From NCBI RefSeq assembly GCF_018332655.1, contig NZ_BOQL01000082.1:1-64000 (forward strand): DNA of 64,000 nt. The letters run 5' to 3'. The notes below the pieces were generated by a model. It did not search any database. It was not told the DNA's origin and worked only from the letters and a program-made list of their open reading frames with translations. The stretch is from Actinoplanes auranticolor. Its GTDB lineage: Bacteria; Actinomycetota; Actinomycetes; Mycobacteriales; Micromonosporaceae. Positions 1,787 through 64,000 of the stretch are shown in pieces (positions within the stretch are counted from its first letter, which is position 1; each line of letters starts with the position of its first letter). A program made the position numbers and the translations under genes.

Positions 1787-3862
1787 TTACTGATCCAGCC
1801 CGCCGATGGCATCGCCGGCGGGTACCGCAATGACGAGCGCGGCGAGGTCGTCACGCAGGTTTGTGCCGAGATGGGTCCGGGTGCGTGAGAGCAGGGCGTC
1901 GGCGACGCCGGACGCGCTGACCTGGGGTGTGGAGATGATGGCGGCGATGTCGTCGGCGATGTCGGCGGGCTGACGTTCGTCGTGCGAGCCTGCGCCTTCG
2001 GTGAACCCGTCGGTGTAGCAGACGAGCGCGTCTCCGGGGGACAGCACCACGGTCTCGGCGCGTAGGTTGAGGCGTCGAGTGACGCCCAGCAGGGTGCCTC
2101 GGGCGATGCTCAGGCGAGTGCGGCCTGCCTGGTGGATGACCGGCGGAGGGTGCCCGGCGCAGGTCAGATGAACAGTGGCGCCGCCGTGCGCGGCGCGCTC
2201 GAGGACGCCGTAGGTCAGGGTGCAGAACCGGGCGTCGCCGATTCGTAGCAGGGCACGGTTCACCAGGGGGAGGACGTAGTCCGCTTCCGCTCGGTGCTGG
2301 GCGGCGGTCCAAATGGTGTGTCGCACGAGTCCGGTGACGGCGGCGGCTTCCGGTCCCTTGCCGCACACGTCGCCCAGCACGATGGCGTACCGGCCGTCGG
2401 GCAGCTCGAACACGTCGTAGAAGTCACCACCGATGCGGGTGCTGTCGCCGTGGGCCTGATAGCGCGCAGCCAGGTCCAGGCCGGTGATGTGCGGCAGCGT
2501 GGGTGGCAGAAGCGGCTTCTGCAGCGCTTCGGCGATGGTGACGCTCTGCTGGTAGAGCATGGACTGACGGATGCCCACGGCGATTTGACGGGCCATGGCG
2601 GGTAATGGGGCCAGGGTGTCGGGACCGGGAGATCCGCCGTGGAGCAGTCCGAGGATCCCGACCAGTTCATCGCCGCTGATCAGTGGGTAGCCGGCGAAGG
2701 AGTACCGCTCCGGAGTGTGGGCCCCCACAAGGGCTGGCTCGCTGATTATGGTCGGTTTCCGGTCGGTCCCGACATTGCCGATCAGGCCTTCGCCCATGGC
2801 GACGTCCGAGTGTGCCCGCAGGATGTCGTCTGCGGGCCCGGAGCTGGCCTGCAGAGAGAACGCGTCGCTGTCGCGGTGGTAGATCCAGATCGCCGTGGCG
2901 GCGAATCCGAGCTGGGCGGTGATGACGTTGCTGCACCGGCGCAGCGCCTGGTCCAAGGGCCCGGTCGCGGTCATGGCCGCGGCTACCTCCGCGGCGGTCA
3001 GGCTCTGCCGACTGTGTCGCAGGATCTGCCGCTGGTTCTCGACGGTCTCCGTCACGTCCTCGGCGATGACGAGTATGCGCGCGATCCCGGCGTCGTCGGT
3101 GATCCGCTGTCCGGTGAGGCGTAGCTGCCACCTACTGGTGTCGGCCTTGGTGAGGCTGAACGTGGCTGCGTGATCGCCGGCAAGCGGGCCGGTCATCTCG
3201 TCGTCTGGCCGGCCTGGTGCGCTCAGGCCCAGATGTGATGCCACCGCCGCGGGGTCGTCGAACAACTGGGTCACGTCGCTGCTCAGGCCGGCGGGCTCGG
3301 TGAGGCCGAGTAATCGACTGGCGCGGTCGTTCCAGGCCACGATCCTGCCGGCCAGGTCCGCCAGAACAACGCTGATGGGCGCTCGGGCGAGCATCTCACC
3401 GAACAGTCGTTCACCGACTCGGCGCTGTACGTTCGCACGACTCGCCATCAGCTGAGCCTGTGCGGTGGCACGGAGGTCTCGGTGGCGGCGTTCGTTTTCG
3501 ACGGCGGCGAACCGCTCGGCGATCAGGCCGTTGAGCTCGTCGAGCCGGTCGCGGGCAATGCGGACGACGTGCCGCCCGGCCATCAGCCCGAGGGGGTCGA
3601 TGCCGGCCGTCGGCGTGCCGCCGACGACGATGACGCTGATGCGGCTGCGGGCCGGCTGCAGCGCATGCACGACCGCGAAGGCATCGGCGGCGTCGGGGCC
3701 GACGACCACGACGGCGCAGTCAGGGTGGTGACCGTCGACCGGTTGGGTGACGGTTTCGACGGTGAGACCGCTCAGCGGGATCTGCAACACCTGGGTGTCG
3801 CCGTGCACAGCGGCGTCGACGACGACGGTCGGCAGGCCCGCCAGGACGATACGGCGTGACAC
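1787..3862 (-). CDS. PAS-GAF-SpoIIE PP2C-type phosphatase
   Basis: 691 residues from the GTG at 3862, preceded by GGAGGAC lying in the end of the upstream gene; a longer open frame upstream has no domain content. Order: an N-terminal 125 residues resembling a degenerate receiver fold, a short helical linker, a PAS domain (about 150-270, APISVVLADLAGRIVAWN), a GAF domain (about 290-445), and a SpoIIE phosphatase domain from about 465 with metal-binding motifs IGGDFYDVF and LGDVCGKG, then CYTDGFTEG. Such enzymes dephosphorylate STAS anti-anti-sigma proteins; the partner is not adjacent here. The gene starts 5 bp after the acyl-CoA dehydrogenase stop, so the two are almost certainly co-transcribed. 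Confidence 0.9.
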   Translation of the reverse strand: MSRRIVLAGLPTVVVDAAVHGDTQVLQIPLSGLTVETVTQPVDGHHPDCAVVVVGPDAADAFAVVHALQPARSRISVIVVGGTPTAGIDPLGLMAGRHVVRIARDRLDELNGLIAERFAAVENERRHRDLRATAQAQLMASRANVQRRVGERLFGEMLARAPISVVLADLAGRIVAWNDRASRLLGLTEPAGLSSDVTQLFDDPAAVASHLGLSAPGRPDDEMTGPLAGDHAATFSLTKADTSRWQLRLTGQRITDDAGIARILVIAEDVTETVENQRQILRHSRQSLTAAEVAAAMTATGPLDQALRRCSNVITAQLGFAATAIWIYHRDSDAFSLQASSGPADDILRAHSDVAMGEGLIGNVGTDRKPTIISEPALVGAHTPERYSFAGYPLISGDELVGILGLLHGGSPGPDTLAPLPAMARQIAVGIRQSMLYQQSVTIAEALQKPLLPPTLPHITGLDLAARYQAHGDSTRIGGDFYDVFELPDGRYAIVLGDVCGKGPEAAAVTGLVRHTIWTAAQHRAEADYVLPLVNRALLRIGDARFCTLTYGVLERAAHGGATVHLTCAGHPPPVIHQAGRTRLSIARGTLLGVTRRLNLRAETVVLSPGDALVCYTDGFTEGAGSHDERQPADIADDIAAIISTPQVSASGVADALLSRTRTHLGTNLRDDLAALVIAVPAGDAIGGLDQ

Positions 3863-3867
3863 GCCGG

Positions 3868-5025
3868 TCAGTCCTCCAGCAGGGGCTCGTCGAGCAGTGC
3901 GCGCCCCACCCAGGTCCGCAGGATGTCCGTGGTCGGTGACATGACGTGCGCCGCGCGACCGTCGCGCAGATAACGGTGCAGGTCGCTGTCGGTTCCGTAT
4001 CCGATTCCGCCGGCGAGGGTCATCACCTCGTTGGTGACCGTGTCGACGGTCTGCGCCACCTCGGCCTTCGCCGAGCACAAGGCCAGCAACGCCGCCGGGC
4101 CGGCCGACTCCGCCTCCTCGGCGGCGAAGTACAACAGCCGCCGGGTCCGCTCGACGGTGGCCCACAGGGTCCCGAGCCGGTGCTGCAGGACCGGGTGGGT
4201 CGACAGCTGCCGCCCGCTGTGGGTGTGACGCCGGCGCTTCAAATGCTCCCGGCCGGTCTCCAGGGCCGCCGTCGCCACGCCGAGATAGGTGCCGGCCATG
4301 GCCATCAGGAAGAACGGTGCGACGACGTTGAAGACGTACCAGATTTCGTCGCCCTCCTCGCCCAGCAGCCGAGAGGCGTCCAGCGGCACGTCGTGCATCT
4401 GCAGCGCGCGGGAGTCGTTGCCGCGCATCCCGAACCCGTGCCAGGCCGGGCCCCACTGCAGGCCCGGGGTCGCAGCGTCGAGGACCGCGACGGAGAAGCT
4501 GCCCGCGGCGGCCGGGGTCGCCGCCCGGACCAGATTGATGACGTACGAGTCGGCGTGCGTGGCGTTGGTGACAAAACTCTTGGTACCGGTGACCCGAAGA
4601 GTGTCACCGTCGGACTGCATGCGGCATTGCGGCAGCCAGAACTCACTTCCCGTGCCAGGCTCGGACAACGCCAGCGTACTCAGATGCTCACCAGCAGCGA
4701 TCGGGCGCAGGAACTCCTGCTCCTGCCGGACGGTCGCTTTGGCTCCCATCACAGCCGACGCGACCAGATGCATGCCGAAACAGATCGAAGTCGAGGCGCA
4801 CTGGCGGCCGATGATCTCCCCGACCCGCGCGACGGCCGACAAGCCGTGCCCGAGACCGCCGAGGCGTTCGTCGACGACCAGACCGCCCAGCTCGCGTTGC
4901 AGTTCCTTCAAACTCGCCTCGGGCCAGCGGCCCTCGCGGTCCACCACGCGGGCCTCGGCTGCGACGGTGCTGTCCGCTACCCGCTGCGCGGCGGCGATTA
5001 CGGCGCCAAGCTCCATCTTCGCCAC
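3868..5025 (-). CDS. Acyl-CoA/acyl-ACP dehydrogenase family protein
   Basis: 385 residues from the GTG at 5025, with GGGAGG six bases upstream. It has the usual three-part fold: N-terminal helical part, a central beta domain with the FAD/substrate loop (ALSEPGTGSEF and SFVTNATHADSYVI), and a C-terminal four-helix domain with MTLAGGIGYGTDSDLHRYLRD. Near the position where catalytic-Glu families carry a Glu-Gly-Thr loop, it reads VMSPTTDILRTW, so the catalytic base may lie elsewhere, as in acyl-ACP or biosynthetic members. It stops five bases before a SpoIIE-type phosphatase gene. Its substrate is unknown. Confidence 0.85.
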   Translation of the reverse strand: MAKMELGAVIAAAQRVADSTVAAEARVVDREGRWPEASLKELQRELGGLVVDERLGGLGHGLSAVARVGEIIGRQCASTSICFGMHLVASAVMGAKATVRQEQEFLRPIAAGEHLSTLALSEPGTGSEFWLPQCRMQSDGDTLRVTGTKSFVTNATHADSYVINLVRAATPAAAGSFSVAVLDAATPGLQWGPAWHGFGMRGNDSRALQMHDVPLDASRLLGEEGDEIWYVFNVVAPFFLMAMAGTYLGVATAALETGREHLKRRRHTHSGRQLSTHPVLQHRLGTLWATVERTRRLLYFAAEEAESAGPAALLALCSAKAEVAQTVDTVTNEVMTLAGGIGYGTDSDLHRYLRDGRAAHVMSPTTDILRTWVGRALLDEPLLED

Positions 5026-57241: not shown

Positions 57242-58456
57242 ATGGCCGACCATGAGCACAGCCACGCCCAGAGCCGCCACAACGACGGGCACTACGGCGG
57301 CGGCCATCACGACGACGGCCATCACGACGACGGCCATCACGACGACGGCCATCACGATGGCCACGACGACGGCTTCGGCGACCGCCGCCACCACGATCGC
57401 CACGACGAACACGGGCACCACGACAGCCACGACAACGACGGCCATCACCACGGTTGGTGGGAGCGGCTGCGTCACCGGATCACGCCGCATTCGCACGACA
57501 GCGCCGACAAGGTTGATTCCGCGCTCGAGTCCTCCCGTGAAGGTCTCCGTGCACTGTGGATCTCCCTGGTGGCGCTCGGCGTCACCGCGGCCCTGCAGGC
57601 CGTCGTCGTTGTGCTGTCCGGCTCCGTCGCGTTGCTCGGCGACACCCTGCACAACGTCGCCGATGCGCTCACTGCCGTACCTCTGGGTATTGCTTTTCTG
57701 CTCGGCCGCCGGGCCGCCACCCGGGCGTACACCTATGGTTTCGGCCGGGCCGAGGATCTGGCCGGCATCGTCATCGTCCTGGTGATCGCCGCTTCGGCGA
57801 TCGCCGCCGGCTGGACCGCCGTCCACCGGCTGGTGCATCCCCAGACCATGACGCACCTGCCGTGGGTGCTGGCCGCCGGCGTGATCGGCTTCCTCGGCAA
57901 CGAGCTCGTCGCCCGGTACCGGATCGGGGTGGGCCGGCGCATCGGGTCCGCGGCGCTGGTCGCCGACGGGCTGCACGCGCGCACCGACGGCTTCACCTCG
58001 CTCGCGGTCGTCCTTGCCGCCGCCGGTGCCTGGCTCGGCTGGCGCTGGGCCGACCCGGCCGTCGGCCTGGTGATCACGGCGGCGATCGCGTTCGTGCTCA
58101 AGGACGCGGCCCGGGAGGTCTACCGCCGGCTGATGGACCGGGTGGATCCGGAGCTCGTGGACAAGGCCGAGCAGTCGCTGCGGGCGGTCCCGGGCATCCG
58201 GGACGTGTCGGGGCTACGGCTGCGCTGGATCGGGCACCGGATGCACGCGGAGGCGGCCGTGGTGGTGGACGCGGACCTGAGCCTGCTGGCCGCGCACGAG
58301 ATCGCGGCGGACGCCGAGCATCAGCTGACCCATCAGGTTCCGCGGCTGACCGGCGCGACCGTGCACGTGGATCCGGCCAGCCACCCGGGCGACAGTCACC
58401 ACACCGACCTGTCCCACCACCGCCGCGACCGCCTCGCCGCGCCGGCCCGGAACTGA
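57242..58456 (+). CDS. CDF-family metal cation efflux protein with His-rich N-terminus
   Basis: 404 residues from the ATG at 57242, with GAGG seven bases upstream (a GTG at 57239 also fits). The first 80 residues are almost all His, Asp and Gly, probably a metal-binding cytoplasmic tail. Six membrane helices follow. The transport site has the Zn-type HxxxD pairs: LGDTLHNVADAL in TM2 and ADGLHARTDGF in TM5. The C-terminal cytoplasmic domain (RLMDRVDPELVDKAEQSLRA) is the CDF ferredoxin-like dimer. It is a proton-coupled exporter of Zn(II), perhaps Co(II). Confidence 0.93.
   Translation: MADHEHSHAQSRHNDGHYGGGHHDDGHHDDGHHDDGHHDGHDDGFGDRRHHDRHDEHGHHDSHDNDGHHHGWWERLRHRITPHSHDSADKVDSALESSREGLRALWISLVALGVTAALQAVVVVLSGSVALLGDTLHNVADALTAVPLGIAFLLGRRAATRAYTYGFGRAEDLAGIVIVLVIAASAIAAGWTAVHRLVHPQTMTHLPWVLAAGVIGFLGNELVARYRIGVGRRIGSAALVADGLHARTDGFTSLAVVLAAAGAWLGWRWADPAVGLVITAAIAFVLKDAAREVYRRLMDRVDPELVDKAEQSLRAVPGIRDVSGLRLRWIGHRMHAEAAVVVDADLSLLAAHEIAADAEHQLTHQVPRLTGATVHVDPASHPGDSHHTDLSHHRRDRLAAPARN
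57302..57346. repeat. 15-bp tandem repeat in the His-rich tail
   Basis: Three perfect copies of GGCCATCACGACGAC (57302-57316, 57317-57331, 57332-57346), with a partial fourth, encode Gly-His-His-Asp-Asp repeats of the CDF metal-binding tail. Copy number can change in frame. Confidence 0.9.
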
Positions 58457-58463
58457 CCTGACG

Positions 58464-59912
58464 GTGACGGATCGTGCACTGACGGATTCCGGACAGGACC
58501 CGGACCGGCGGCAGTGCCACGATCGGGACGTGGGGGACGAAGCTGTAGCCGAGCGGGGATCTACCGGCGACGCCGTGGTCATCGGGGCCGGCATGGCCGG
58601 CCTGGCCGCCGCGCGGGTGCTGGCCGACCGGTTCGCCCGGGTGACGGTGGTCGACCGCGACCACCTGCCGTCCGGACCGGAGAGCCGCCGGGGCGTGCCG
58701 CAGAGCGCCCACCCGCACGCCCTGCTCGCGGTCGGGCGGGACGCCCTGGAGAAGCTGTTCCCCGGGCTGACCGACGAACTCGTCGGGCTCGGGGCGCGGT
58801 GGATCGACGTGGCCCGCGACGCGTACGTCTGGCAGCTCGACGGGTACCGCGTCCGGGTGGACAGCGGCGTCACCATGCTCGCCGTGAGCCGGCCGCTGCT
58901 GGAGAGCTGCGTGCAGCGGCGGGTGCGGGCGCTGCCGGGGGTACGCGTTCTCGACGACACCGCGGTGGCCGGTCTCGTCGGCCGGTCCGGTGAGCGGGTG
59001 TCCGGAGTGACGCTGGCCGACGGCCGTGAGCTCGCGGCCGAGCTGGTGGTCGATGCCAGCGGGCGCGGCAGCCGCTCCGACCGCTGGCTGCGGGAGCTGG
59101 ACTTCCCCGTCCCGGCGGAGTCGGTGATCACCGTACGCGTGCACTACACGACCCAGCTCGTCCGCGGCCAGCCCGACTGCCTGCCCGGATCCGGGATGAT
59201 CGTGGTGGCCGAGACCCCGCCCGAGCAGTGCCGCTACGGCGCCGCCTTCTCCGTGGAGGGCGGCCGGTGGCTCGTCACCCTCGGCGGCTTCCACGGTGAG
59301 CAGGCGCCGACCGACCCCGAGGGTTTCCGGCGGTTCGCCGATGACCTGCCGGACGGCACGATCGCGCAGTTGCTGCGCACCGGCGAGCCGCTGACCGATC
59401 CGGTCGCCTACACCTATCCGGCCAGCCGGCGCCGCCACTTCGAACGGCTGCGCCGGATCCCGGCGGGCTACGTGGCCATGGGTGACGCGCTGTGCAGCTT
59501 CAACCCCGTGTACGGCCACGGCATGACGGTCGCCGCGCTGGAGGCGGTCACGCTGGGGGAGAGTCTCGATCGGCACCGCACCCCGGGCGTGGTGATGGCG
59601 CGCGACTTCTACCGCCGCAGCGCGAAGGTGATCGCCGTCGCCTGGGACATGGCCGCCGCGACCGACTTCGTCTATCCCGGGACGGAGGGTCCCAGGCCGC
59701 GGGGCCTGGCCCTGACGCACTGGTACCAGCGGCGGATCTTCCGGGCCCTCCATGTCTCGCCGGAGGTCATCAGGACCGTCGTCCGGGTGCAGCACCTGCT
59801 GGAGCCGGGGTCCGCGCTGCTGCGGCCGGCCATGGTCGTCAGAGTCCTCCGCGCGGCCCGCCGTGACCGGAAGGCGGTGGGCAGCGCTGCGGCCCGGCGA
59901 CCCATCCTCTAG
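58464..59912 (+). CDS. FAD-dependent oxidoreductase (PHBH/geranylgeranyl-reductase-like)
   Basis: 482 residues from the GTG at 58464, eight bases after the CDF stop; a GTG at 58530 (VGDEAVAERG) is an equally possible start. The FAD motif is AVVIGAGMAGLAAARVLADR with the usual Asp/Arg (TVVDRDHLPS). GVPQSAHPHALLAVGRDALE follows, and the second FAD motif is GYVAMGDALCSFNPVYGHGM. It resembles the epoxidase/hydroxylase branch of flavin monooxygenases. The HPHALL segment is typical of a broad actinobacterial subfamily of unknown substrate. Confidence 0.85.
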   Translation: MTDRALTDSGQDPDRRQCHDRDVGDEAVAERGSTGDAVVIGAGMAGLAAARVLADRFARVTVVDRDHLPSGPESRRGVPQSAHPHALLAVGRDALEKLFPGLTDELVGLGARWIDVARDAYVWQLDGYRVRVDSGVTMLAVSRPLLESCVQRRVRALPGVRVLDDTAVAGLVGRSGERVSGVTLADGRELAAELVVDASGRGSRSDRWLRELDFPVPAESVITVRVHYTTQLVRGQPDCLPGSGMIVVAETPPEQCRYGAAFSVEGGRWLVTLGGFHGEQAPTDPEGFRRFADDLPDGTIAQLLRTGEPLTDPVAYTYPASRRRHFERLRRIPAGYVAMGDALCSFNPVYGHGMTVAALEAVTLGESLDRHRTPGVVMARDFYRRSAKVIAVAWDMAAATDFVYPGTEGPRPRGLALTHWYQRRIFRALHVSPEVIRTVVRVQHLLEPGSALLRPAMVVRVLRAARRDRKAVGSAAARRPIL

Positions 59913-59921
59913 ATTCGGCGG

Positions 59922-60557
59922 ATGGCTCTGCTGCACCGTGCGAATCTGACCCCGTCCAAGCTCGAGCTGCTGGCCGGCTGGCTGCCCGGCCGAGCGTGGT
60001 TCGCCGGCCCGCTGGAGGCCGAGGTGGTCCGGGTCGCGGCCTTCCGTTTCGACGACCCGGCCGGCCGAGTGGGCCTGGAGACGATGCTGGTCCGCGCCGG
60101 TGACGGGCCGGTCCTGCAGGTCCCGCTGACGTACCGCGACGCACCCCTGGACGGCGCCGAGCAGTGGCTGATCGGCACGACCGAGCACTCCGCGCTGGGC
60201 CGCCGCTGGGTCTACGACGCCTGCGGTGACCCGGTCTACGCCGCGGAGCTGGCCCGGGTGATCCATGCCGGCGGCACCCAGGCCGAGGAGTACTTCGAGG
60301 TCGACGGCCGGCGCGAGACCCGGGCGCCGGCCATGACCGTCAGCGGCAGCGGGACCGGGGATGCCCCGGTCCCGGCCACCGGCACCGTGCACCGGGTCGT
60401 CGACGAGGACCCCACGGTGATCGTGACGGACGAGGTGGAACTGGCCGTGCTGCGCCACCTCGGCACCAGCCAGCGGGTCACCGGCCCGGTGCTGACCGGC
60501 ACCTGGGGCGACGAGCCGCTGCCCGTGCCGCTGGCTTACGCCACCCCGGCGCAGTGA
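59922..60557 (+). CDS. Stand-alone maltokinase N-terminal cap-like protein
   Basis: 211 residues from the ATG at 59922, ten bases after the FAD gene. The sequence KLELLAGWLPGRAWFAG, VAAFRFDDPAGRVGLETMLV and PLTYRDAPLDGAEQWLIGT resembles the N-terminal cap domain that precedes the kinase core in mycobacterial-type maltokinase (Pep2/Mak). No kinase core follows, so this is an orphan cap-domain protein. Such proteins are often misnamed branching enzymes in actinobacteria. The function is unknown. Confidence 0.7.
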   Translation: MALLHRANLTPSKLELLAGWLPGRAWFAGPLEAEVVRVAAFRFDDPAGRVGLETMLVRAGDGPVLQVPLTYRDAPLDGAEQWLIGTTEHSALGRRWVYDACGDPVYAAELARVIHAGGTQAEEYFEVDGRRETRAPAMTVSGSGTGDAPVPATGTVHRVVDEDPTVIVTDEVELAVLRHLGTSQRVTGPVLTGTWGDEPLPVPLAYATPAQ

Positions 60558-60605: not shown

Positions 60606-61730
60606 CTACTGAGCCACCACCCGGTCCCCGGTCAGCTGTAGCAGGCGCAGCGGGATCGCGTCCGCCATGGCCTGCATCCCGGCGTCGTTGGGGTGCAGGT
60701 GGTCGCCGCTGTCGTGGCGCGGGAGCAGGCGCAGCGGCTGGGCCGGGTCGCGGACGGCCCGGTCGAAGTCGATCACGCCGTCGTACTCGCCGCCGGTGCG
60801 GATCCACCGGTTGACCGCGGCGCGCTTGGCCTCGTTCTCCGCGCTGTAGTAGCCGGCGATCGTGGTGTCCTGGAACGGCGTCAGGGTGGCGCCGATGATC
60901 CGCAGGCCCCGTTCGTGGGCCCGGGCGATCAGTTGCCGGTGCCCGTTGATGATCTCCTCGGCGGTCACCGTCTCGGACGGCGGGGCCAGCGACGTCGGCT
61001 GGCCGATGTCGTTGATGCCGAGCAGCACGATCACGGCCCGGGCACCCGGCTGGGCGAGCACGTCACGGTCGAAGCGGCTCAGCGCGCTGTCGCCGAAGAG
61101 CGGCCCGATGCCGGAGAACGGGGTGCCGGCCACCGTGTTGCCGTCGTGCAGCAGCCGGTTGCCGCCGATGCCCTTGTTGAGCGCGCCGAGGTGCCGCAGC
61201 GGGGCCTGCGCCTGCAGCCGGCGGGCCAGGAAGTCCGGCCAGCGGTGGTCGGCGGCGGTGCGCTGCGGCAGGTGGATGCTCACGACGAGATCGGACAGCG
61301 CCGGTACGGGTAGCGTCACCGGATCGCTCAGCGCGGGGGCGCCGGGCGGGACGCTGAACGAGGACCGCCCGCCGAAGGTGAGCCTGCGGTCGGTTCCGGG
61401 CAGGAGCTGAGAACCACCGGCGCTGCGGGCGATGCGCGCTTCACCGATCACCAGCGGCTCGGTGCCGTACTCGTTGGACAGCCGCACCCGCAGCGACCGG
61501 CCCGCGATGCTGGTGTGCACGATCTGGCGCAGGGTCTGGTTCTCGAACACGGTCTGCGGCATCGGCGGGGTCGCCGCGCCGGTCACGGCGGTGCTCCAGG
61601 TGCCGGTCCAGGTGGCCGGGCGGTCGGCCGCGACGGCCGAGCCGGTCATGAGGGTCGCGACGCCGAACGTCGCCACGGTGGCGGTGATCAGGCGCGGGAG
61701 CCTGGTGGTGGATGCTGTCATCGTCGACAC
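60606..61730 (-). CDS. SGNH/GDSL hydrolase-family protein lacking the nucleophile block
   Basis: 374 residues from the ATG at 61730. A signal peptide (LPRLITATVATFGVATLMTG) ends near AVAADRP. The N-terminal jelly-roll-like part (WTGTWSTAVTGAATPPMPQT, RLSNEYGTEPLVIGEARI) and later blocks are normal: Gly in LNKGIGGNRLL, GxND in VIVLLGINDIG, and Asp/His in GDHLHPNDAGM. Block I, the GDS motif with the catalytic Ser, is absent. Sequence runs from SIHLPQRT straight to AADHRWPDFLARRLQ, which in relatives are separated by about 60-70 residues containing GDSITDG. An in-frame deletion is likely near 61255. Confidence 0.85.
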   Translation of the reverse strand: MSTMTASTTRLPRLITATVATFGVATLMTGSAVAADRPATWTGTWSTAVTGAATPPMPQTVFENQTLRQIVHTSIAGRSLRVRLSNEYGTEPLVIGEARIARSAGGSQLLPGTDRRLTFGGRSSFSVPPGAPALSDPVTLPVPALSDLVVSIHLPQRTAADHRWPDFLARRLQAQAPLRHLGALNKGIGGNRLLHDGNTVAGTPFSGIGPLFGDSALSRFDRDVLAQPGARAVIVLLGINDIGQPTSLAPPSETVTAEEIINGHRQLIARAHERGLRIIGATLTPFQDTTIAGYYSAENEAKRAAVNRWIRTGGEYDGVIDFDRAVRDPAQPLRLLPRHDSGDHLHPNDAGMQAMADAIPLRLLQLTGDRVVAQ

Positions 61731-61788
61731 CTCCCTGTCCGGACCAGCCCAGCTCAGCCCCGTCCGGGTGTCAAGGCATCGACGGTCG

Positions 61789-62400
61789 TCAAGATGAGCG
61801 GCTCACGCTCAGGGCAGCCGCCAGCTGGTCCGACCACGCGCGGACGACCCGGGCCCGGCGCCGGGAGTCGTCGGTGAGGACGTCGGCCAGGGCCAGGCCC
61901 CGGGCCAGGTCGAGGGTGGCCTGGATGAGACCCCGGACAGCCGGGTCGCTGTCGTCCACCCGGAGCAGCCGTACGGCCCGCCGGTGCACGCCGCGGGCGA
62001 AGTGCCGCTCCAGCGGGACCACCGCGGCCCGCAGCTCGGGGTCGGCGGCGGCCACGGTCCACACCTGCAACGCGGCCCGGAACAGCTCACCGCCGATCGC
62101 GTCGACCAGGCCGGTCACCACCGCATGCACCCGGTCGGGGCTCGAACCCCCGGGGTCGGGCAGCGCGTCGAGCAGCGCCGCCCGCTCCTCGAACATGGCC
62201 TCCAGCGCGGCCAGGATGAGCGCCTCCCGGGTCCGGAAGTGGTGCTGCACGGCCCCGCGGCTGATCCCGGCCTCGGCCGCGATGAAGGCCACCGTCGAGA
62301 CCTCCCACCCGTGCCGGGCCAGGCTCCGGATGGTCGTCTCCAGCAAGCGCCGGCGCGTCTCCCGCGAGCGGTCCTGCTTGGGCGCGGAGTCGTCAGCCAT
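61789..62400 (-). CDS. TetR-family regulator
   Basis: 203 residues from the ATG at 62400. Helix-turn-helix: TRRRLLETTIRSLARHGWEV, then IAAEAGISRGAVQHHFRTRE. The C-terminal ligand domain is helical. It overlaps the carboxylase gene by eight bases, which places it in the same transcript. TetR genes joined to acyl-CoA carboxylase genes often regulate branched-chain amino-acid or fatty-acid breakdown clusters and sense acyl-CoAs; here this is inference from position. Confidence 0.92.
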   Translation of the reverse strand: MADDSAPKQDRSRETRRRLLETTIRSLARHGWEVSTVAFIAAEAGISRGAVQHHFRTREALILAALEAMFEERAALLDALPDPGGSSPDRVHAVVTGLVDAIGGELFRAALQVWTVAAADPELRAAVVPLERHFARGVHRRAVRLLRVDDSDPAVRGLIQATLDLARGLALADVLTDDSRRRARVVRAWSDQLAAALSVSRSS

Positions 62401-64000
62401 CCCCGGCCGCCGCCACCACCGCCAGCGGCGTGCCCTGGCTGACCTGACGGCCGACCGGGACCGGCAGCTCCGTCACCGTGCCGTCCGCCGGGGCGCGCAC
62501 CACGTGCTCCATCTTCATCGCTTCCAGCCAGATCAGCGCCTGCCCGGCCACGACGGCCTCACCGATCCGGACGTCCGTGCGCACCACCGTGCCGGGCATC
62601 GGCGCCACCAGGGCGCCGGCCGGCAGCTGGGCCGACGGGTCGGTGAAACGCGGCACCCGGCGCAGCTCCAGCGAGCCCTGAGGCCCGTCGACGACCACCC
62701 GATCGGCAAAGCGTCCCACCGTCCACCGGCGGCGGACCCCGTCGAGGTCGAGCACCACCGCGTCAGCCGTCGCGTCCACCAGCACGACGTCGTCCCGGCC
62801 GGGCACCTCCAGGCCGTCGCGGCCGAAGCGGTACCGCACCTCGATCTCGGTGTCGCCGACGGCGTAGCGACGGCTGCGGTAGCCGACCGGGATGTTGCGG
62901 AAGCCGCGGGCCAGCAGCGGCACCAGCGCGGCGTCGGACAGTGCGGCGACCAGGGCGCCGAGGGCCGGGTCCAGCCCGGTGCCGGCGGTCAGCGCGGCCG
63001 GCGGATGGTCGGTGTAGAAGCCGGTCCCGGCGGTGCCGGCCAGGAACTGCGGGTGCAGCAGGCTGGCGACCAGCAGGTCCCGGTTGGTGGCCACCCCGTG
63101 CACGCGGGCGCGGCGCAGGGCGGCGGCGAGCTGCCGGGCCGCGGCCTCACGGGTTGACGCGTACGCGATGACCTTCGCCAGCATCCCGTCGTAGTGGGTG
63201 CCGACCACGCTGCCGTCCACCACTCCGGAGTCGAGGCGGATGCCGTCCAGCCCGGCGCGCTCGAAGCGGGCCGTCACGCCGGGGGCGTCGAAGGTGACCA
63301 CGGTGCCGGTCTCCGGGCGCCAGTCGTCGGCGGGGCTCTCGGCGTACAGGCGGGCCTCGACGGCGTAGCCGGTCATCGCCGGCTCCGCACCGCTGAGCCG
63401 GTGGCCCGCGGCGACGTCGAGTTGCAGGCCGACCAGGTCGGTGCCGGTGACGCACTCGGTCACCGGGTGCTCGACCTGCAGGCGGGTGTTCATCTCCAGG
63501 AACCAGAAGTCGCCGTTGGCGGCGGCGATGAACTCCACCGTCCCCGCGCCGCGGTAGTCGACCGCGGCTGCGGCCTTCCGGCCCGCCGCGAGCAGGCGTT
63601 CGCGCAGGTCACCGCCGATCCGCTCGACCAGCGGCGCGGGCGCCTCCTCGATCACCTTCTGGTGCCGGCGCTGCAGCGAGCACTCCCGTTCGCCCAGCGC
63701 CCAGACGGTGCCGTGGGCGTCGGCCATGATCTGCACCTCGACGTGGTGCCCCTCGTCCAGGTAGCGCTCGCAGAAGACGGTGGGATCGCCGAACGCGGCA
63801 CCGGCCTCCCGCGCCGCGGACGCGACAGCCGCGGGCAGCTCGGCCAGGGTGCGCACGATCCGCATGCCGCGCCCGCCGCCGCCGGCCGACGCCTTGACCA
63901 GGACGGGCAGTTCGGCCTCGGTGACGGCGTCCGGATCGAGCAGGTCGAGCACGCTCAGGCCGGCCGCCGCCATCCGGCGCTTGGACTCGATCTTGGAGCC
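62393..64000 (-). CDS. Acyl-CoA carboxylase alpha subunit (biotin carboxylase/BCCP), partial
   Basis: The visible 535 residues are the C-terminal part; the gene enters from the right edge. The first visible residues (GSKIESKRRMAAAGL) belong to the biotin carboxylase domain. It continues with the ATP-grasp Gly-rich loop (KASAGGGGRGMRIV), catalytic ECSLQRRHQKVIEEAP and FLEMNTRLQVEHPVTE. A linker domain follows, then the biotinyl domain with the biotin-Lys motif EAMKMEH. This is the fused form used by propionyl-, methylcrotonyl- or acetyl-CoA carboxylases. The substrate depends on the beta subunit, which lies outside the window. Confidence 0.95.
   Translation of the reverse strand, partial: GSKIESKRRMAAAGLSVLDLLDPDAVTEAELPVLVKASAGGGGRGMRIVRTLAELPAAVASAAREAGAAFGDPTVFCERYLDEGHHVEVQIMADAHGTVWALGERECSLQRRHQKVIEEAPAPLVERIGGDLRERLLAAGRKAAAAVDYRGAGTVEFIAAANGDFWFLEMNTRLQVEHPVTECVTGTDLVGLQLDVAAGHRLSGAEPAMTGYAVEARLYAESPADDWRPETGTVVTFDAPGVTARFERAGLDGIRLDSGVVDGSVVGTHYDGMLAKVIAYASTREAAARQLAAALRRARVHGVATNRDLLVASLLHPQFLAGTAGTGFYTDHPPAALTAGTGLDPALGALVAALSDAALVPLLARGFRNIPVGYRSRRYAVGDTEIEVRYRFGRDGLEVPGRDDVVLVDATADAVVLDLDGVRRRWTVGRFADRVVVDGPQGSLELRRVPRFTDPSAQLPAGALVAPMPGTVVRTDVRIGEAVVAGQALIWLEAMKMEHVVRAPADGTVTELPVPVGRQVSQGTPLAVVAAAGDG

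Follow-up and report, generated by a model that had tools for sequence, protein, structure and literature searches.

An in-frame 201-bp deletion has probably inactivated an accessory secreted SGNH/GDSL esterase gene in Actinoplanes auranticolor

A secreted esterase gene of the SGNH/GDSL family in Actinoplanes auranticolor was found to lack a stretch of 201 bp that encodes the catalytic serine block in its orthologs. We consider it likely that a real and probably young in-frame deletion has inactivated this accessory gene, leaving a null allele and not an evolved pseudoenzyme. This reading was preferred because no other genome showed the deletion, no clear change of rate was detected, and three intact paralogs are present in the same genome. 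The event most likely represents the ordinary loss of a gene and not the appearance of a novel type of protein.

Locus and reading frame

The gene lies on the minus strand of contig NZ_BOQL01000082.1, within a stretch of 64,000 nucleotides that is called the window here. The list of open reading frames and the translation placed the frame at 61730 to 60606, with the stop at 60606 and 374 open codons from a GTG at 61730. Because this GTG, which would give a protein of 374 residues, overlaps a Shine-Dalgarno-like AGGGAGG (61730-61736, minus strand), the ATG at 61721 appears to be the likelier start; with this putative start, the deleted gene, as defined by its frame and translation, orthology and synteny, would occupy 60606-61721. 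The candidate AGGGAGG, read by inspection, is located eight bases upstream of the ATG, and a DNA alignment revealed that its position relative to the start is conserved in the closest ortholog.

This ortholog was identified in a search of 67 genomes of the genus and belongs to Actinoplanes (Amorphoplanes) nipponensis NBRC 14063 (G035; 2918-4216, minus strand). The two loci share five genes in identical order, which were named by inspection as FAD-dependent oxidoreductase-like, hypothetical, GDSL, TetR and biotin carboxylase-like, and the GDSL proteins are 79.5% and 84.3% identical on the two sides of the gap. The TetR-type regulator frame (61789-62400, minus strand) is located upstream of the esterase gene on the same strand and is 95% identical in A. 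nipponensis; it overlaps by 8 bp the biotin carboxylase-like frame (62393-63973, minus strand), which is 89% identical. The esterase gene is probably the last gene of a TetR-containing operon, and since it lies last behind the TetR frame on the same strand, its loss should leave the upstream genes undisturbed. An open frame of 786 codons was also observed on the minus strand at 58098-60458, antisense to the FAD-oxidoreductase-like gene and the next gene; it is probably an effect of high GC.

The predicted product, encoded on the minus strand throughout, starts with a signal peptide region recognized by inspection from its hydrophobic core and AVAA end (61620-61721), which is followed by an N-terminal β-sandwich (CBM-like) domain without its last three strands (61260-61616). 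After the deletion junction, the remaining SGNH domain (60639-61247) lacks β1 and the nucleophile. The extent of the sandwich was taken from the alignment and its strands from a model of the ortholog.

The 201-bp gap

The protein passes from LPQRT through AAD directly to HRWPDF (...SIHLPQRT-AAD-HRWPDFLARRLQ...), and the junction reads ACC GCC GCC GAC (T-A-A-D) at 61248-61259 on the minus strand. The spacing between RT and HRW was 3 residues in the window protein and 70 in the aligned A. nipponensis ortholog, which leaves the window protein a net 67 residues (201 bp) short. Four more orthologs of the genus showed spacings of 70, 70, 70 and 104 residues, and the alignment revealed that the block was also retained in the other two of the seven. 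The ortholog stretch facing the gap contains VVTFGDSITDG, and the catalytic Ser of block I, missing from the window protein, was present in all seven genus orthologs. The alignment therefore bore out an earlier note on this DNA, which had named no strand, had placed a gap near 61255 and had expected 60-70 residues including GDSITDG at this point in homologues.

The same note had described blocks II, III and V as intact, and we found all three: the oxyanion-hole Gly of block II (GIGGNR), aligned with that of the orthologs, the Asn of block III (GxND; GIND), and the Asp-x-x-His of block V (DHLHP, within DSGDHLHP). The Pfam profile PF13472 still matched at 81.7 bits (cut-off 32.9; 1.2e-22), beginning only at profile position 14, and an NCBIfam search returned no family. 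Judged by the Pfam match, the protein is a member of the SGNH/GDSL family by descent. The case is a caution for enzyme mining: despite the loss of the nucleophile, the product is still identified as a GDSL esterase by a profile search.

When the gene was aligned globally with the ortholog at the DNA level, the gap appeared as two parts of 144 and 57 bp, separated by a 7-nt island, GCCGCCG. We rejected the corresponding two-step deletion; a single 201-bp event is simpler because the left edge of the ortholog in genome G016 (ACC GCC GCC G), joined to the common right edge (AC CAC CGC), reproduces the window sequence with zero substitutions. As the edges join without substitution, the codon created at the junction may account for the private N161D change.

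It could also be argued that the organism still has the 201 bp and that they were dropped in the assembly, which is a draft of 142 contigs; the restriction of the deletion to one genome and the intact remainder of the gene would both agree with such an error. However, the junction is clean, it preserves the frame and it lies well inside the contig (at about 61 kb of 95 kb), and the longest exact word common to the gap edges was 6-7 nt in all five orthologs tested. Because shared words of at most 7 exact bases are far too short to be collapsed by an assembler, an assembly or sequencing error is unlikely. No ortholog-grade copy of the missing block was found elsewhere in the genome, where the two matches were intact paralogs (43% and 50%).

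Distribution of block I among orthologs and paralogs

Block I with its Ser was kept at all 29 genus loci examined, 22 of which were of the GDSITNG type, and in 33 of 33 homologs from named genomes (checked by pattern in 26 and by eye in 7); none of these loci and homologs showed the same deletion. The type of the window gene (GDSITDG) is sparse, and it is accessory in the genus as judged by sequence identity, because among the matches listed only 8 of the 67 genus genomes, the window included, had a match of at least 73% identity. The same genome holds three intact paralogs, two on contig C44 and one on contig C79, of which one is of the GDSITNG type. Loss of the gene would have been tolerated because it is sparse in the genus and these three paralogs remain.

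A family search covering 300 genomes gave no convincing second case among the matches listed, as judged by match coordinates. The matches starting at query positions 120-146 look like the LVVSIHLP strand of the window protein aligned onto the VVxFGDS strand of intact proteins. If strains sharing the deletion were found, it could be used for dating the gene loss; the case has no bearing on a long-standing question.

A match from the genus search, in genome G048 (C22:101681-102715), ran straight across the junction and was considered as a parallel loss; it was rejected, as GDSITNG is kept and a different stretch is missing, which marks a separate lesion. In this homolog (C22, about 101.8-102.8 kb), the N domain has lost its end right before an intact VAFGDSITNG, and the matched stretch contains an in-frame stop. 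In the ortholog of genome G054, the linker that joins the N domain to block I is extended by 34 residues made of tandem repeats (RPASGVSAAD...). The repeats fall within the stretch deleted in the window, and this insertion suggests that the linker is prone to indels. In a Bacillus homolog, GSSIANG replaces GDSITDG, with the Ser retained and the Asp changed.

Age of the loss and selection

Outside the gap, the gene (GC3 of 0.952) contains no stops and no frameshifts. The alignment has 67 columns with a conservation of at least 90% among its other rows; the window gene lost 10 of them in the gap and showed a single substitution in the remaining 57. The earlier description of an open frame, a signal peptide that is normal by sequence and no wider decay is in agreement with these counts.

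The selection tests, from which residues before 36 were excluded, revealed a pairwise dN/dS of 0.40 between the window gene and the A. nipponensis ortholog, and a similar value of 0.44 between the two intact orthologs of G035 and G016. None of the relative-rate tests, for which four outgroups were used, was significant (p 0.43-1.0), and their power was low; with G016 as the outgroup, lineage-only amino-acid changes numbered 23 versus 17 (p 0.43). At otherwise conserved sites, 14 changes were found in the window gene and 5 in the ortholog, and one of the 14 (residue 161) is located at the junction. This skew points toward relaxation in the window gene, although it is only suggestive. The conserved remainder of the gene would fit a loss late on the branch and would also fit continued constraint, the tests being weak.

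An alternative is an evolved pseudoenzyme, in which the secreted protein would have lost the nucleophile block but would still serve a non-catalytic function as a binder or decoy. The signal peptide, the oxyanion-hole Gly and Asn and the Asp-His pair are all still conserved, the conserved columns outside the gap are nearly unchanged, and no clear excess of amino-acid changes was present. However, the changes at conserved sites lean to the window gene, in the direction of relaxation, and conservation of the inactive form across lineages was not observed, as it was seen in one genome only and in none of the 29 loci of the genus and 33 homologs from named genomes; we therefore regard this alternative as quite improbable. 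The earlier note had left the choice between a pseudoenzyme and a very recent in-frame deletion. Its second option was sustained by the single genome, the kept frame and the spared conserved sites, and the first found no positive support. For a young null allele, the open frame would reflect recency plus a 1-in-3 chance of frame retention, and not selection for a new function.

Predicted structural consequences

The intact ortholog was modeled with AlphaFold2 at a pLDDT of 91.8 for the best model (87.5-91.8 over five models), and we mapped the missing stretch onto it. The stretch comprises strands 170-174, 187-189 and 195-202 of the N-terminal sandwich, followed by strand 207-213 (β1) and the nucleophile turn. 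By this model, a single in-frame deletion of 201 bp would take more than the serine block, removing three N-domain strands and the central strand β1 of the SGNH sheet together with the nucleophile loop.

The best model of the window protein had a pLDDT of 85.9, and the other four had values of 74.4-75.9. In this protein β1 is absent and β2 has lost its strand assignment; a short strand modeled at 24-28 falls within the signal peptide and is probably an artefact. The best structural matches of both models were the polyvinyl alcohol esterase 9kr0 and the acetyl xylan esterases 7tog/7toj. Against 9kr0, the ortholog model showed a Z-score of 59.4 (382 aligned residues, rmsd of 2.1) and the window model a Z-score of 37.0 (317 aligned residues, rmsd of 1.9). 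The two domains of the best window model are thus placed close to the intact fold (rmsd of 1.9 over 317 residues), a placement toward which the input alignment of intact homologs biases the prediction. The product would be unable to form the serine-oxyanion active site, and poor folding or degradation is probable.

The predicted loss of β1 and of three N-domain strands also speaks against a pseudoenzyme. A secreted SGNH pseudoenzyme with a stable fold, in which the SGNH sheet would either dispense with β1 or borrow the preceding N-domain strand LVVSIHLP and which would be retained to bind the substrate of the operon, is very improbable.

A further alternative is a hydrolase that is still active through another serine, such as that of a GDS triplet at about residue 213 (FGDSALSRFDRD) or the Ser of LVVSIHLP. 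The triplet and further serines do exist in the window protein, and the earlier statement that no GDS motif is present was accurate for block I but not for the whole protein. As a moved nucleophile, however, the triplet was rejected, since it is also conserved in the intact orthologs alongside their genuine block I. Moreover, in the model it is located just before a helix, outside the β1 loop, and no strand clearly substitutes for β1, so that activity through another serine is improbable in the extreme.

Comparison with known systems

Plant GDSL proteins of the At1g54030 kind differ in architecture from the window protein. In PMC4757993, plant GDSL proteins without block I or its Ser, such as At1g54030, are termed pseudoenzymes, which provides a precedent for that alternative; At1g54030 carries a Ser/Gly change, whereas the window case is a 201-bp deletion in one bacterial genome that also took structural strands. 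Among the papers listed in literature searches, no bacterial GDSL protein without block I was found, the available portion of an SGNH review (PMC9487903) names no such member, and a search on SGNH/GDSL pseudogenes with the catalytic serine returned a fish gene.

The acetyl xylan esterases PbeAcXE and CspAcXE (FjoAcXE-like; PDB 7tog/7toj) resemble the window protein in their N-terminal CBM-like domain, C-terminal SGNH domain and block V DxLHP, as described in PMC9105624. According to the same paper, their nucleophile motif, by which FjoAcXE-like acetyl xylan esterases are recognized, is GNSI, whereas the intact Actinoplanes orthologs have GDSI and the window protein, without block I, has neither. 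In PbeAcXE, the ligand occupies the domain interface, where residues of both domains hold it (PMC9105624). As mapped on the ortholog model, the window gap affects the serine loop as well as the N-domain strands that come last; by analogy with this relative, in which binding takes place between the two domains, a retained binding role is doubtful.

The polyvinyl alcohol esterase 9kr0/9kqz, so named in its entry title, was among the best solved sequence matches of the window protein and the ortholog and was the best by fold; a literature search on 9KR0 found no publication. It shares the two-domain arrangement of a β-sandwich and an SGNH fold, but it is a complete enzyme of about 40% identity, while the window protein lacks the nucleophile region. 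The closest known counterpart is the A. nipponensis NBRC 14063 ortholog, which matches the window gene in synteny, in identity flanking the gap (79-84%), in its signal peptide and in blocks II, III and V, and which differs in having a 70-residue stretch with GDSITDG where the window protein has 3 residues.
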